Of a stretch of DNA of 56,438 nucleotides, positions 48,896 to 56,438 are shown one piece after another. The position numbers were made by a program, and so were the translations under genes. Positions within the stretch are counted from its first letter, which is position 1. Each line of letters opens with the position of its first letter. Under the pieces are notes generated by a model. That model was not told the DNA's origin and did no database searches. It was given only the letters and a program-made list of their open reading frames with translations. The stretch is from a candidate division NC10 bacterium CSP1-5 (GTDB lineage: Bacteria; Methylomirabilota; Methylomirabilia; Methylomirabilales; CSP1-5). The stretch is taken from the NCBI GenBank assembly GCA_001443495.1, contig LDXR01000018.1, positions 1 to 56,438 on the forward strand, in the 5' to 3' direction.

Positions 48896-51800
48896 GTGAA
48901 TCGAGAGACCGTGCACCCGCACACCAACCGACTGATCGGCGAGACCAGTCCCTACCTCCTCCAGCACGCCCATAACCCGGTGGACTGGTACCCGTGGGGA
49001 GAGGAGGCCCTCCGCCGCACCAAGGAGGAGAATCGCCCGATCCTCCTCAGCATCGGCTACTCCACCTGCCACTGGTGCCACGTCATGGAGCGCGAGTCGT
49101 TCGAGGACGAGTCGATCGCCGCGCTGATGAACAGGCACTTCGTCTGTATCAAGGTCGATCGCGAGGAGCGCCCCGACCTCGATGAGATTTACATGGCGGC
49201 GACGGTGACGCTCAATCATGGGCAGGGCGGCTGGCCCATGACCGTCTTCCTGACCCCCGACCAGCAGCCGTTCTTCGCCGGGACCTACTTCCCGCCTACG
49301 GACAAATACGGCCGTCCCGGCTTCGCGACCTTGCTCACACGAATCGCAGAGATGTGGCAGAGTGACCCCGAAGCCTTGCGGAGTCAGGCCGCGCAGCTCA
49401 CCGAGCACCTGCGCCAGCAATCACGCCCGCTTTCCTCCATGTCGATCAGCGAGGCCGAGATAGCCGCAGTAGCCGCCTACGGCGCCGAGCACTTCGATGC
49501 CACGTACGGGGGATTCGGCCCCGCACCGAAGTTTCCTCCCGCCACGAAGCTCTCGCTCCTCCTGCGATATCACCGGCGCACCGGCGACGGTGAGGCCTTG
49601 CAGATGGTGCGCACCACGCTCGATGCCATGGCACGGGGAGGCATCTACGATCAGGTCGGCGGCGGCTTCCATCGGTACTCGGTCGACGAGCGTTGGCTCG
49701 CCCCCCACTTCGAAAAAATGCTGTACGACAACGCGCTCCTCACCCGGACCTACCTCGAGGCCTTTCAGGCGACGGGCGACCCCTTCTACCGGCGGATCGC
49801 CACCGAAGTCTTGGAGTACGTCTTGCGCGAGATGACGGCGCCCGAGGGAGGCTTTTACTCCGCGACCGACGCCGACTCGGAAGGGGAGGAGGGGACGTTT
49901 TTCGTCTGGACCCCCGCCGAGATCGAGGCAATCCTGGGCGAGGAGGATGGGCGGCTCTTTTGCGCTTACTACGACATCACGGCCCGCGGCAACTGGGAAG
50001 GAAAGAGCATCCCGAACGTCCGGCGCACGGTCGAGCAGGTCGCAGCCAAGCTCGAGATCAAGGCCGAGGTACTTCAGGCGTCGCTGGATCGAGCGCGGCA
50101 GCGGGTCTATGAAGCCCGCAAGCGGCGGGTCGCGCCGGGGCTCGACGACAAGATCCTCACGGCCTGGAACGGTTTGATGATCAGCGCGATGGCCGAGGGG
50201 TACCGGGTCCTTGGAGAGCATCGCTACCTGGACACCGCCTCCCGCAGTGCCGACTTCCTGCTCACCACCCTCGTCCGGACGGACGGTCGACTCCTCCGGA
50301 CCTATCGAGACGGCAAGGCGCACCTGGACGCCTACCTGGAGGATTACGCCTATCTCGCCAAGGCGCTGATCGACCTGTACGAGGCGGGGGGCGCAGCTCG
50401 GTATCTCACCGAGTCGCAACGGCTCGCCGAGATGCTCTTGGCGGACTTCGCCGACAAAGAGAGCGGCGCCTTTTACTCCACGGCGCGTGACCACGAATCC
50501 CTCATCCTCCGCCACCGGGAGGGGACCGATGGGGCGACCCCGAGCGGCAACGCCGTCGCCGCCTCCGCATTGGCTCGCCTCTCGTTCCACCTGGACCGCG
50601 AGGATCTGCGAGTCGCCGCCGAGCGGGCGATCAGCGCCTATGGCAAGCAGATAGGCCGTATTCCCCATGGCTTTGCCAAGAGCCTGACCGTGGTGGACTT
50701 CCTCCTTGAAGGCCCGATGGAACTGGCCCTGATCGGAAGTCCACGGGAAGCCCGCTACGAGGCGATCCGCGCGGAGATCGGTCGCCACTACCTGCCTAAC
50801 CGCATCATCGCCCATCACGATCCGGCAGTGGGTGATCCCCCGCCTTTTCCGCTGCTCCAGGGGAAGGGCCTCGTCAACGGGCAGGCGGCGCTCTATGTTT
50901 GCCGGAACTTCGCCTGCCAGGCCCCCATTACCGATCCGGCCCTGGTGGCCCCCGCCCTGAGCGCCCCAGCTCCGGAGGCGGAGGACAGGCGGCGGTGGGT
51001 GGTCGGAACATTTGTGTCCGGGAGCGCGACACCTGCCAGCACGCGTGCCTACGCCTCTCGCTTTACGCCACAAGGCTATGGCGCGCTCGGCTCAACCGGA
51101 CTCACGACCAGCAGGCTCGGCTTCGGTTGCTACCGGATTGACGACGAGACATCCGAGCACCGCGAGGCCCTCGAAAAGGCGCTGCTCAGCGGCTCCAACC
51201 TGGTCGACACCTCGACCAATTACACGGACGGGGCGAGCGAGCGGTGTGTTGGTGCCATCCTTGGTGCGACAGTGCGGGCCGGGAAGCTTCAGCGCGATGA
51301 AGTCATCGTGGTCTCCAAGATCGGCTATGTGCAGGGGAATAACCTTTCCCTCGCTCAAGAACGGGAGGAGGTTGGCCGCCCCTTCCCGGAGATGGTCAAG
51401 TACATGGAGGGCGTCTGGCACTGCATCCATCCCGAGTTTCTGCGCGAGCAGCTCGAGCACTCGCTGGCACGGTTACAACTCGACACCCTCGACGTCTGCC
51501 TGCTGCATAACCCCGAGTATTTCCTCTCCGATGCCAAGAAGCGAGGTCGAAGCTCTCTGGACGCGGCCCGCGACGAGTTTTACCGGCGCTTGCGCGAGGC
51601 CTTCGCCTTCTTTGAGACGCAAGTTGCGATAGGCACGATCCGGTGCTATGGCGTCTCCTCGAACACGGCCGTCTCCCCCGCCTCTGATCCGGAGGCAACC
51701 TCGCTCACCCGGATGCTTGCAGAGGCACGGGAAGCCGGAGGGTCCAACCATCACTTCCGGGTCCTCCAGATACCGATGAATCTGTTCGAGCCGGGTGGCG

Positions 51801-52537
51801 TGCTCGAGCAGAACACCGGGCCGGAAAACCGGCAGACCGTGCTGGAGGCCGCCGGTGAGACAGGGATCGGCATCCTCATCAATCGGCCGCTGAATGCGAT
51901 GGTCGGCCGCGGCATGCTGCGCCTGGCAGACATTCACGCCGAGGGCACACCGATCGATGTCGAAACACAGCGGAAGATCGTTGCCGAGCTCGAGGCGGAG
52001 TGGCGGCGCCAACTCTCGCCCCATATCAAGACCTCGGCAGGGAGTATGCGCGCTGACGACTTTTTCCGGTGGGCCGACCAGTTGCAAGGCCTGGCGGACC
52101 AGATTCAGAGCCTTGAACACTGGGAGCAGATCGAAGGCCAGATGGTCACGCCACAGCTCGCCCATCTGCTGAGGGCACTCGATACCCACCTTGAGGGCGA
52201 GCTCCAGGCCCAGTGGCAGTCCTGGCGCAGTCGCTACCTTGGCGAGCTGCTCAAGCTCATGGCCGAGCTCCGCCGGCAGGCAGCCGCCAAGAGCCAGCGA
52301 CTGAGCCAGGCGGTCTCCGCGGCGATCGATCCGCTGCTGCCGCCCGAGCGGCGGGCCGAGAGTCTTTCCCGCAAGGCCCTCTGGGTGCTCGCCAGCACCC
52401 CTGGCGTGAGCTGCGTGCTGAACGGCATGCGCAAGCCGTCTTACGTCGACGATTCCCTGGGCGTTCTCTCTTGGCCTGCCCTCCCCGACGTCCTCCCCAT
52501 CTACCAGGCCACCCAGCGCGAATCGACTGTTAGGTGA
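48896..52537 (+). CDS. Fusion of YyaL/DUF255 thioredoxin-like protein and aldo/keto reductase
   Basis: A 1213-residue protein. Residues 1 to about 690 are a complete YyaL/SPATA20-type protein: a thioredoxin-like domain with CHWC (Cys58, Cys61) in [20 protein letters not shown], then the (alpha/alpha) barrel, ending at the usual [13 protein letters not shown]. After a linker comes a full aldo/keto reductase from about residue 715 ([18 protein letters not shown]), with Asp and Tyr in [10 protein letters not shown], Lys in VVSKIGY and His in LLHNPEY. The long C-terminal helices end in [15 protein letters not shown]. The GTG start follows GGAG. Each half alone is common; the fusion is unusual and suggests one process. 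Confidence 0.92.
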
Positions 52538-53962: not shown

Positions 53963-54115
53963 ATGGAATTCCATTTCCAGCAGATCGCGCCCGAGATGGA
54001 TTGGCGAGAAGCGAAACTCAAGTTCTGGCGCAGCGTGGACGCCTTCGGCCCGGAAGGCAGCCCCGAAAAAGAATCCGCCATCCGCACCCAAATCCTGGGT
54101 GCGTGTAAAATGTAA
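53963..54115 (+). CDS. Possible 50-residue protein, weak
   Basis: An ATG frame MEFHFQQIAPEMDWREAKLK then FWRSVDAFGPEGSP and a basic end to TAA at 54113-54115. No ribosome site and no family match is seen. It may be the tail of a lost gene, as this stretch follows the duplicated AKR end. The opposite frame at 53867-54130 is a shadow. The surrounding 300 bases (53832-54134) hold nothing else I can support. Confidence 0.3.
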   Translation: MEFHFQQIAPEMDWREAKLKFWRSVDAFGPEGSPEKESAIRTQILGACKM

Positions 54116-54134
54116 GGCGTCGAGCCCCAACCAC

Positions 54135-54548
54135 TCACGCCCCTTTTCTCAGCTCCATGATGCCTTTCAAGGTTCTCAAGTCCTGCCTCACCCATCCGAT
54201 GTCTTCGGCAAACTTTTCGTCTGACACACCGGCTAGCTGAAACAGCGTGAAGAGCACCTCGCTTCCAGAAGCGTTCGGCACAACGCGCATGGGAACAAAG
54301 ACCTCCACGCCAGGACCTGGATTCACATAGTGGTCCAAGACGCCAAAGTTGTTTTTCCCGGTGAAACGTACCTTCACTGGACCCTGTGGGGTTTCCGCGA
54401 TCCACTTGCCGTTCGATTTCTTGATTGACCGACAGAACATCTTGGCCCATTTCGGCAGATTCTCTGGTTTCGAGACAAACTCGTACACCCTTCCCGGATC
54501 ACAGTTGATGGAGACGCTCAGTGTTCTTGATTTCAACAATACCGCCAT
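54135..54548 (-). CDS. SRPBCC-superfamily protein
   Basis: A 137-residue protein of the START/Bet v1-like fold: LSVSINCDPGRVYEFVSKPE, LPKWAKMFCRSIKKSNGKWI, and strands ending FVPMRVVPNASGSEVLFTLF before the last long helix. Such proteins bind hydrophobic ligands or act as polyketide-cyclase-like enzymes. Nothing fixes the ligand here. It is transcribed convergently with the tail of the cassette region. Confidence 0.8.
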   Translation of the reverse strand: MAVLLKSRTLSVSINCDPGRVYEFVSKPENLPKWAKMFCRSIKKSNGKWIAETPQGPVKVRFTGKNNFGVLDHYVNPGPGVEVFVPMRVVPNASGSEVLFTLFQLAGVSDEKFAEDIGWVRQDLRTLKGIMELRKGA

Positions 54549-54609
54549 CCTCAGTCTCTCCTAGGTCTCTCCTATCGCGGGGGATGATGGATTGCTCGCC
54601 TCCCCGGCC

Positions 54610-55053
54610 CTAATCAGGACCGCAGGAACCGACTTGAATCTTCTCAGCACAGCAAGGGACTTCGGCGGCGGCGGGAGGCAGGTCGTAGTTCAGGTGATAG
54701 ACCTCCCATTCGACGCCGTCCGGATCCCGGACCCAGAACTTGTCCTGATTGGCGTGGCAGCAGTTGACCCCCATCTCCTCGTGGACCGGAATTCCAGCCG
54801 CCTTCACGCGGGCGAGGTGCGCCATCACCGTCTCGGTCGAGTCAACCTGGATGCCCAGGTGATGCACCACGCCCTCACTGGTGCCAGCGGGCAGGCCCTG
54901 GGACAACGCCAGGTTGATAGGGGCAAAGGCTGGAAGGAACTTCACGTAGCCGACCCGCTCTTTGACCGGCAGGACATCGAAGAACTTCTGGTAGAACTCG
55001 CGACTCTTTGCCAGATCAGACACGTGGATGTGAATGTGCACCTTGGCGCTCAT
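54610..55053 (-). CDS. arsI: ArsI/CadI-type organoarsenical C-As lyase
   Basis: A 147-residue VOC protein. MSAKVHIHIHVSDLAKSREF opens the fold with the metal His. Two vicinal cysteines, Cys98 and Cys99, lie in GVNCCHANQDKFWV, which is the ArsI arsenic-binding pair, and VEWEVYHLNYD follows. The enzyme would cleave the C-As bond of trivalent methyl or aromatic arsenicals. The C-terminal tail has another CC at 134-135 and C144. The ATG 55053 has AAAGGAGG six bases upstream. ArsR precedes it by 11 bases. Confidence 0.9.
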   Translation of the reverse strand: MSAKVHIHIHVSDLAKSREFYQKFFDVLPVKERVGYVKFLPAFAPINLALSQGLPAGTSEGVVHHLGIQVDSTETVMAHLARVKAAGIPVHEEMGVNCCHANQDKFWVRDPDGVEWEVYHLNYDLPPAAAEVPCCAEKIQVGSCGPD

Positions 55054-55064
55054 GGGATCCTCCT

Positions 55065-55367
55065 TTAGCAGCACGCGGTCAAAAGCCGAACCATCTGGGC
55101 AACCATCTCGCGCTTGACGGAATAATAGACGTACCGCTCCTCTTTCCGGCTCTGGATCAACCCGGCCCGACGCAACAGGTCCAGGTGGTGCGACAGCGTG
55201 GGCCAGGGCACCTCCATGGCCTCCTGGATCTCTCCGGCCGGCACCTCACGCCTCGCCCGAACCAAGAAGAAGAACACTCGGAGGCGAGTCAGGTGGGCCA
55301 GGGCCCTGAATGCCTCCGCGTGGGCCTGATCGGCCTCTAGTTTGGTCAGCGAAATAGTTGCTTTCAT
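55065..55367 (-). CDS. arsR: ArsR/SmtB-family repressor, arsenic type
   Basis: A 100-residue winged-helix repressor: FRALAHLTRLRVFFFLVRAR, GEIQEAMEVPWPTLSHHLDL (recognition helix) and LRRAGLIQSRKEERYVYYSV. The protein ends with two cysteines (LLTACC), as in the ArsR group whose C-terminal Cys pair senses As(III). It likely controls itself and arsI. The start codon overlaps a perfect inverted repeat and lies next to the -10 box, so the mRNA is probably leaderless. Confidence 0.92.
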   Translation of the reverse strand: MKATISLTKLEADQAHAEAFRALAHLTRLRVFFFLVRARREVPAGEIQEAMEVPWPTLSHHLDLLRRAGLIQSRKEERYVYYSVKREMVAQMVRLLTACC

Positions 55368-55403
55368 ATTTCCAAAAATATCGAACTATATCCGCCTTGT
55401 CAA
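55366..55403 (-). promoter_or_regulatory. arsR-arsI promoter and operator
   Basis: On the minus strand TTGACA (55403-55398), 17 bases, then TATTTT (55380-55375). The perfect inverted repeat ATATTTCCAAAAATAT at 55366-55381 covers the -10 and reaches the ATG at 55367. A repressor bound there would block transcription. The expected start of transcription is at the ATG itself, giving a leaderless message. Confidence 0.75.
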
Positions 55404-55516
55404 GAGAAAAATTCACATCCCCAGGGCCCAGATCCAAGCGCGGATGAAGCACTGGTGTGCGGCAGCCTACCACCACGCCTCCTCGCTTTGACGGAGGGGC
55501 TCTCACAGGAGGGTTC

Positions 55517-55711
55517 TTACAACTTCCTCAACAGATTGAAGGCGGTGATGGCGAGATAGCCGGCTATGAGGAGTGAGAGCCAGGAAAGCCACGTGGGCAC
55601 GGCAAAGCTTCCGATCTGAGCCGGCCAACCGTAAACGATGCGGGCCAGATGCAGGATCGCAATAGTCCCGAATATCGTGCCACTGACTCCGAGAAAAGTC
55701 TTCTGACTCAT
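55517..55711 (-). CDS. Small membrane protein, unrecognised
   Basis: A 64-residue protein with two hydrophobic helices (residues 8-26 and 42-62) and a short loop (ARIVYGWPAQIGSFAVPTWL). The Pro/Trp loop suggests a conserved two-helix hairpin. The gene stands between thyX and arsR with its own start; I recognise no family. Confidence 0.6.
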   Translation of the reverse strand: MSQKTFLGVSGTIFGTIAILHLARIVYGWPAQIGSFAVPTWLSWLSLLIAGYLAITAFNLLRKL

Positions 55712-55762
55712 ATCTATACGGATACCTGGGCTGGATCGTCTGACAAGGGAGCGCCAGTGCGG

Positions 55763-56438
55763 TTAGACCTTGCTATGCTCGGGCTTCCACTGGCAGGTGC
55801 CGTCGGGAAGGGGGATCGGCGTGAAATCTCCGAACAGGTGAGGCGCTTCCTTCTTGATGATGTCTGCGACCTTGCCGAAGACCATGCGGATCTCCACCTC
55901 GGCCCCGGGCTCGGTCCGTGCCTCGATCACCCACCGGAGGGTCCGGGCGTTGGCTGTCCAGATGATCGTGGTCGCCACCCCGTCGGGCGCGACGCGGCGC
56001 ATAGCCGAGGTGAGGACTTTCTTCTCGTGGAAGGGCCGGCCTTCGATCCCCAGGACCTCGGCCAGGCGCTGCTGGGCCTCTTCAGTCTTGGCCACGGCCT
56101 CTTCGAAGATCGCAAGCGCCTCGGGATTGTCGCGGATCTCGGGTGGGACCCACATCCCGACTTCCGTCAGGCGCACGAAACGGAGACTCTCTTGGCTGAT
56201 GGCGGTTCCGGCCCGATGCCTCACAAGTTCGTGAGTGAAGACGCGACTGACGTTGAAGAAGGCGAAGGTCCAGCTGGCGTGCTCGAGCACGCTGCCGTGC
56301 TTGACGTTCAGGATGTTTTCGAGATACGTCTTGCTCCCCTCGCGAATCCTGGTGACGTTGGGATTGAGCCCCGGCTCGAAGGAACGGTAGCAGGACCGCC
56401 CCGCCACCTCGACGAGCTTTTCCGCCCCCGAAGGGGCA
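55763..56438 (-). CDS. thyX: FAD-dependent thymidylate synthase (partial)
   Basis: The N-terminus lies beyond the window: the frame continues open to the edge, with APSGAEKLVEVAGRSCYRSF reading straight in. Key ThyX features are VLEHASWTFAFFNVSRVFTH and the signature RHRAGTAISQESLRFV (RHRxxSxxxxSxR), the dUMP/FAD-binding loop. The protein makes dTMP from dUMP with reduced FAD. The C-terminal part DIIKKEAPHLFGDF is normal. The listed ATG frame at 56407 is only an internal Met. Confidence 0.95.
   Translation of the reverse strand, partial: APSGAEKLVEVAGRSCYRSFEPGLNPNVTRIREGSKTYLENILNVKHGSVLEHASWTFAFFNVSRVFTHELVRHRAGTAISQESLRFVRLTEVGMWVPPEIRDNPEALAIFEEAVAKTEEAQQRLAEVLGIEGRPFHEKKVLTSAMRRVAPDGVATTIIWTANARTLRWVIEARTEPGAEVEIRMVFGKVADIIKKEAPHLFGDFTPIPLPDGTCQWKPEHSKV

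Follow-up and report, generated by a model that had tools for sequence, protein, structure and literature searches.

The DNA analysed here, hereafter the window, is a 56,438-nt stretch (contig LDXR01000018.1, assembly GCA_001443495.1) of the candidate division NC10 bacterium CSP1-5, with a GC content of 62.5%, and contains on its minus strand a small gene of the ArsR/SmtB family followed by a second, enzyme-like gene (Table 1). The first gene, arsR, matches the family models NF033788 (74.6 bits, cut-off 55), PF01022 (29.2, cut-off 22) and PF12840 (41.2, cut-off 27), all above the curated cut-offs, and the nearest Protein Data Bank chains by sequence are HlyU, SrnR, Lmo1102, the biofilm growth-associated repressor and SmtB. 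Its product has just two cysteines, C99 and C100, both in a C-terminal LTACC end that is invariant in 25 aligned ArsR proteins; the three C-terminal cysteines of a type 2 (AfArsR-like) As(III) sensor are not found in it. The second gene matches NF041414, a model of the ArsI/CadI group of VOC metalloenzymes which covers CadI as well as ArsI, with 126.2 bits against a cut-off of 116. Elsewhere in the window, a 1213-aa frame on the plus strand (48896-52537) joins a DsbH-type thioredoxin/DUF255 domain to an aldo/keto reductase domain, and is possibly a fusion.

Table 1. Features of the arsR locus (window positions)
Feature	Position	Strand	Remarks
-35 box TTGACA	55403-55398	minus	promoter scan and conservation in phylum upstream regions
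Proposed operator, dyad centred 10.5 bases before the A of the ATG	55362-55393	minus	suggested by conserved columns
Perfect inverted repeat ATATTT-TTGG-AAATAT (6-4-6)	55381-55366	minus	overlaps the -10 box and the AT of the ATG
-10 box TATTTT	55380-55375	minus	17-nt spacer after the -35 box, 7 nt before the ATG; promoter scan and conservation
Predicted transcription start	55367-55368	minus	on the A of the ATG or one base earlier; inferred from the -10 distance
arsR start codon ATG	55367-55365	minus	
arsR	55065-55367	minus	100 aa, ATG start, ArsR/SmtB family
Codons of the terminal Cys-Cys pair	55068-55073	minus	invariant in 25 of 25 aligned proteins
Shine-Dalgarno AAGGAGG of the arsI/cadI gene	55059-55065	minus	touches the arsR stop codon
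arsI/cadI-type VOC metalloenzyme gene	54610-55053	minus	147 aa, 11 nt after arsR

Between the arsR ATG and an in-frame TAG located 18 nt before it there is no ATG, GTG or TTG, which rules out an upstream start and leaves the ATG at 55367 as the sole common start codon of the gene. No Shine-Dalgarno run of three or more bases was found at Shine-Dalgarno distance from this ATG in the window; the sole Shine-Dalgarno-like bases before arsR, GGA, lie 3 nt from it, which we take to be too close to act as such a site. The stretch preceding the gene is AT-rich, and its promoter, which matches 10 of the 12 consensus bases, is the only promoter-like site that our scan returned in 54000-56438; since shuffled versions of this region yield 0.6 such sites on average, a single match means little. 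The distance from the -10 box would put +1 on the start codon, and with no Shine-Dalgarno site present this is the pattern of a leaderless autorepressor gene. According to the original prediction, the -10 box, a perfect 6-4-6 inverted repeat and the ATG all lie within 17 bases, and this is exact, the span being 55381-55365. A -10 box at TATAGT (55390-55385), which would imply a longer leader, was considered as well and rejected, as its best -35 match is 1 of 6 bases (0 or 1 of 6 at spacers of 16-18).

Taken alone, the 6-4-6 repeat is unremarkable. When the AT-rich 55 bp at arsR were shuffled 2000 times with dinucleotides preserved, 290 shuffles contained a repeat with 6-base arms and a spacer of 0-10, on which ground we rejected the repeat as stand-alone proof, and 46 contained one with a spacer of exactly 4. 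The whole window contains 28 perfect 6-4-6 repeats. The exact string ATATTTNNNNAAATAT is unique to the arsR site in the 2.77-Mb genome. In addition, one of the six pairs of the repeat, in which a -10 box T faces the A of the ATG, is given by the spacing itself, and two more have one side already fixed. The repeat is thus weak evidence by itself, and it is the cross-genome comparison that carries the case.

The arsR gene was found at 46 places in 41 of the 95 genomes of the phylum, the window's gene included; the class and phylum searches covered these identical 95 genomes. The titles of the records bearing it read Candidatus Methylomirabilota and Candidatus Rokubacteria/Rokuibacteriota, phylum names being taken throughout from the titles of MAG records and the counts including related genomes. 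The set of 46 upstream loci is without the gene of genome G093 (L062) and includes L034; this and L007 are pieces of one gene broken at contig boundaries, identical at 141 of 141 bases, so that the 46 loci represent 45 genes, or 46 with L062. The upstream tally comprised 45 regions of at least 60 nt each, the window's included, with L062 kept apart. The dinucleotide TA is located at -13/-12 from the start codon in 44 of the 46 genes (43 of the 45 tallied regions, plus L062), and a full TANNNT is present at this position in 35 of the 45 regions. A -35 hexamer with at least 5 of 6 consensus bases precedes it in 39 of the 45, at a spacer of 16 (3 regions), 17 (33) or 18 (3). As for the exceptions, L062 has the TA at the expected place without a -35 box, and four loci (L013, L014, L050 and L054) are without a -35 box but have TG directly before the -10 box, as in an extended -10 promoter, while L011 and L018 have no promoter at the expected distance from the start. 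Among 43 upstream regions, the start codon is ATG in 32 and GTG in 11, GTG starts being less usual among leaderless genes in E. coli and so a point against the leaderless reading, and in all 43 the base at -1 is a pyrimidine and the first base of the start codon a purine. Orthologous start codons had been named in the original prediction as a check, and in the 44 genes an ATG or GTG indeed stands at the same distance from the -10 TA.

The translation signals of the two genes differ across the phylum as they do in the window. A Shine-Dalgarno run of at least four bases was found at 3 of 42 arsR starts versus 33 of 42 starts of the next gene, the latter having been chosen partly by such a run, so that the choice leaned towards such sites. 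Judged by eye, the 42 next frames include 19 with a beginning like that of arsI, 7 resembling arsM and 7 resembling a ThiS-type protein, some of these picks being likely wrong frames (e.g. L040, L005 and L056); the family scan confirmed L031 as an arsM and L057 as a further arsI. A separate branch of seven loci (L013, L014, L015, L032, L050, L054 and L055), in six of which arsR starts with GTG, has arsR followed by a protein of about 105 aa that ends near Gly-Gly and is neither arsI nor arsM. In L013 this protein matches ThiS (PF02597, 23.2 bits, cut-off 22.5), and those of the other members look alike by eye; the branch pairs an arsenic-type repressor with a sulfur-carrier-like protein.

Outside the phylum, we tallied 13 homologues at 54-73% identity from 51 loci, with three at 32-36% (L111-L113) set aside. 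The same promoter-start geometry was found in 9 of the 13, which by their record titles belong to Latescibacterota (5), Gemmatimonadetes (3) and Actinomycetota (1). Two more have the -10 box with a -35 match of just 4 of 6 (L107) and 2 of 6 (L096) bases, one has by eye a -10-like TAATTT 10 nt before its ATG (L106), and the upstream DNA of the last (L103) contains no such promoter. Where two ATGs lay 6 nt apart in these rows, the one at promoter distance was taken; in the phylum, the start was the nearest in-frame ATG, GTG or TTG at 39 of the 46 loci and was moved upstream to a candidate at promoter distance at 7. This way of choosing starts brings a mild circularity to those 7 loci and to the other-phylum rows.

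The conserved spacing in orthologues and homologues strongly supports the inference that arsR is leaderless and that a predicted operator runs over its start codon. We regard it as scarcely credible that an AT-rich stretch in a window of this GC content merely mimics a promoter and a palindrome: while the shuffles produce both 6-base-arm repeats and promoter-like sites at the rates given above, chance is contradicted by the recurrence of one spacing in 44 of 46 phylum genes and 9 of 13 homologues from other phyla. Another reading is that the mRNA carries a short leader, either because it begins a few bases upstream or because part of it comes from a second, upstream promoter. The choice of transcription start wobbles by a few bases, which would suit such a leader, as would the TAATTT of L106 and an upstream ORF on the same strand (55517-55711), between which and arsR our scan found no terminator; read-through from this ORF could add leadered transcripts. 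Against these points, the spacing is near invariant, the pyrimidine-purine step seen in 43 of 43 regions fits a start at that very purine, and the only -10-like alternative upstream, TATAGT, comes without a -35 box. A short leader is therefore unlikely, and we retain a leaderless arsR as the preferred reading.

The extent of the putative operator was approached through the conserved columns of the upstream regions. In the phylum, 31 non-redundant regions give the dyad consensus TTC.ATA.TTC.A-N6-T.GAA.YAT.AAR, of which the window keeps ATA.TTC and GAA.TAT (55389-55366) and not the outer TTC arm. Counted at positions free of -10 or ATG constraint, a dyad centred at -10.5 has 0.585 of its cells complementary, the best of 54 centres, followed by -2.0 with 0.498; the centre of the 6-4-6 repeat, -6.5, has 0.403, and the median of the 54 is 0.26. 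The column counts are over 43 rows, without L007 (9 nt of upstream DNA), L011 and L018 (no promoter), and the bases kept in 40-42 of the 43 are T at -18 and -17 (40 each), A at -14, T at -7 (41), and A at -4 and -3 (42 each). The phylum dyad thus has its centre 4 bp farther upstream than the repeat and extends as far as codon 2. The window itself has 8 of 13 pairs in each of the two frames, i.e. they are equal, and it is the only one of the 46 phylum loci with the exact 6-4-6 repeat. Covariation between the arms in the phylum does not exceed that of shuffled data, the observed value being equalled or exceeded in 1503 of 2000 shuffles for the centre at -10.5 and in 1450 of 2000 for that at -6.5, so that the phylum dyad rests on its conserved columns.

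The other group behaves differently in this respect. Here a set of 13 rows was used which includes L062 of the window's own phylum and leaves out L103. None of 2000 shuffles reaches the covariation value at either centre with all 13 rows, and 2 of 2000 do with the 8 non-redundant rows; however, the rows are related to one another, and the result favours neither frame over the other. With no covariation in the phylum and related rows in the other group, we rejected covariation as a proof of the operator. The exact 6-4-6 repeat occurs in 7 of the 13 rows, all Latescibacterota or Gemmatimonadetes, and, by eye, three Latescibacterota loci (L099, L104 and L105) have the ATG inside an extended repeat, TTTC.ATATTT-N4-AAATAT.GAAA, which 4 other rows share with a single outer-arm mismatch. 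The choice between the frames centred at -10.5 and -6.5 is thus unsettled, although both would cover the -10 box, the predicted transcript start and the start codon. Of the operator over the start codon in the original prediction, the overlap stands, while the extent and frame given by the 6-4-6 repeat probably need correcting, the phylum operator being probably larger and centred at -10.5 rather than -6.5. The fusion of repression with both starts at a single site, also proposed there, is still the best reading, because either frame covers all of them.

These columns bear on a further possibility, namely that arsR is leaderless as proposed, with ArsR binding elsewhere, for instance to the -35/-10 spacer alone, and with the bases around the ATG serving only the promoter and the start. 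The -35 box, the -10 box and the ATG would be constrained regardless of where ArsR binds, and the phylum arms do not covary. Moreover, passages of published work place the ArArsR site between -46 and -19 relative to its start codon (PMC11868830) and the nreA operator in the spacer (PMC12724321). However, the positions -18, -17, -7, -4 and -3, which belong to no box, are as conserved as the boxes and pair as a dyad, and the extended repeat of L099, L104 and L105 surrounds the ATG itself (with the one outer mismatch in four others). Binding away from the start codon is accordingly improbable, about as much so as a short leader, and an operator that includes the start codon is the reading we follow below.

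The same geometry recurs elsewhere in the genome and the class. The pattern TTGAC-18-TANNNT-7-RTG occurs five times in the 2.77-Mb genome versus none for the reversed control, and two of the five sites precede ArsR-family genes, i.e. the window's arsR and one at G000:C7:65494; the frames behind the remaining three are 223, 15 and 5 aa long, so that at least two of these sites look like chance. An ArsR query gave four matches in this genome. In 94 genomes of the class we counted 134 occurrences of TTGACA-17-TANNNT-7-ATG versus 4 of the reversed control, and 19 of the 134 are the present arsR gene, matched by place. About 30 of the 134 matches supplied a sample for a Pfam scan, in which 20 of the 22 listed frames of at least 46 aa were scanned, the window's own being left out. 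Nine of the 20 encode DNA-binding proteins (2 ArsR, 2 Cro/CI-type, 1 HTH_17, 1 LacI-HTH, 1 MarR and 2 ribbon-helix-helix), 2 are TumE-like, 5 are of other kinds (glutaredoxin-like, short-chain dehydrogenase, TM_HPP, amidase and MatE), and 4 have no match.

Several of these sites are worth recording separately. The same spacing precedes another ArsR-family gene, distinct from the first and with a product of 114 aa, both in the window's genome (G000:C7:65494-65532, L116) and in a genus mate (G005:C41:9302-9340, L128). Among L120-L148, the geometry precedes several small DNA-binding genes and TumE-like genes (L133 and L134 by scan, L139 and L142 by eye). We also looked at more distant ArsR-family genes, covering 12 of 17 loci: 4 of the 12 (L021, L025, L111 and L112, 32-38% identity) have promoter-like boxes 6-8 nt before the likely start, and some others have Shine-Dalgarno sites instead. 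Leaderless ArsR genes may thus occur outside this clade.

Taken together, we consider it quite probable that the locus is a leaderless arsR-arsI operon in which ArsR acts on a shared start site and is released by an arsenical. In this model, arsR would be the first gene of a short operon, presumably co-transcribed with arsI from one sigma-70-type promoter that sets the transcript start on the A of the ATG or one base earlier. ArsR would be translated from a leaderless mRNA, with ribosomes loading at the 5'-terminal AUG, and arsI from its own Shine-Dalgarno sequence, AAGGAGG. An ArsR dimer is proposed to sit on an imperfect palindrome of about 24-32 bp, from the -35/-10 spacer to codon 1 or 2, where, covering the -10 box, the transcript start and the start codon, it would exclude RNA polymerase. 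A trivalent arsenical bound to Cys99-Cys100 would then release ArsR from the DNA, giving little ArsR and, we infer, more ArsI. Methylarsenite is our best guess for the ligand, because the protein has two cysteines alone, as in the two-cysteine SpArsR, and an ArsI-type partner. The terminal pair need not be the sensor, however, since the C-terminal Cys107-Cys108 pair of ArArsR was not needed for sensing, as stated in passages of PMC11868830.

More tentatively, and with somewhat less than even confidence, we suggest that one 32-bp element combines the -10 box, the starts of transcription and translation and a repressor half-site, and that this has been kept in at least four phyla, as judged from record titles. 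Codons 1-2 (ATG AAR; ATG GAA in most Latescibacterota and Gemmatimonadetes records) would then be dictated by repressor binding, and the frame would have slid by 4 bp between the groups with the fusion to the start codon kept. The locus provides a clean example, open to testing and from an uncultured phylum, of probable self-control by a repressor at a shared start of transcription and translation. The spacing recurs ahead of another ArsR gene and of MarR, Cro/CI-type, LacI-HTH and ribbon-helix-helix genes, a hint that leaderless mRNAs may be a recurrent device of small self-repressors in this phylum. Where gene prediction depends on Shine-Dalgarno sites, starts of this sort may be put in the wrong place, and an all-in-one switch of 40 bp could serve in arsenic biosensors.

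Leaderless self-repressors, and indeed a leaderless arsR, are already in print, and the window's arsR is a new example with good comparative support; our literature search found no paper pairing 'leaderless' with 'Rokubacteria'. Leaderless genes have been described, in passages of PMC7563307 and PMC3160421, as leaning towards transcription functions, with which the nine DNA-binding genes among the 20 frames of our Pfam scan agree. Transcript-start mapping has placed arsR of Cupriavidus metallidurans CH34 among leaderless mRNAs with a 5' UTR of less than 5 nt (PMC7563307), which resembles our case in the type of transcript; it belongs to another phylum, and the relevant passages of that paper give no operator. 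On the protein side, the passages on SpArsR of Shewanella putrefaciens describe a repressor with two cysteines, against three in AfArsR, which answers MAs(III) and not As(III) (PMC11868830); like the window's ArsR, it is of a C-terminal type and has no counterpart of the third AfArsR cysteine, a likeness of cysteine number taken from the published description. In nreAXY of Mesorhizobium, a metal-responsive self-repressor has its 5' end mapped to the A of the AUG (with a reporter in A. fabrum) and its control within 39 bp, while differing in protein family (CsoR/RcnR) and in an operator that, as reported in part of PMC12724321, lies in the -35/-10 spacer and not on the start codon. The classic leaderless repressor mRNAs, those of lambda cI and Tn1721 tetR (as cited in PMC3017554), likewise encode proteins of other families. 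The acuR-acuI-dddL operon of Rhodobacter sphaeroides, as described in passages of PMC3017554, is similar in layout: its mapped 5' end coincides exactly with the acuR AUG, translation of acuR is lower than that of the downstream genes, and a leaderless self-repressor gene comes first with Shine-Dalgarno-led enzyme genes after it. Its regulator is of the TetR family, its ligand is acrylate and its repeat is TAATAGAC-n6-GTCTATTA, unlike those proposed here, but in both systems an inverted repeat overlaps the promoter in a layout conserved across taxa.
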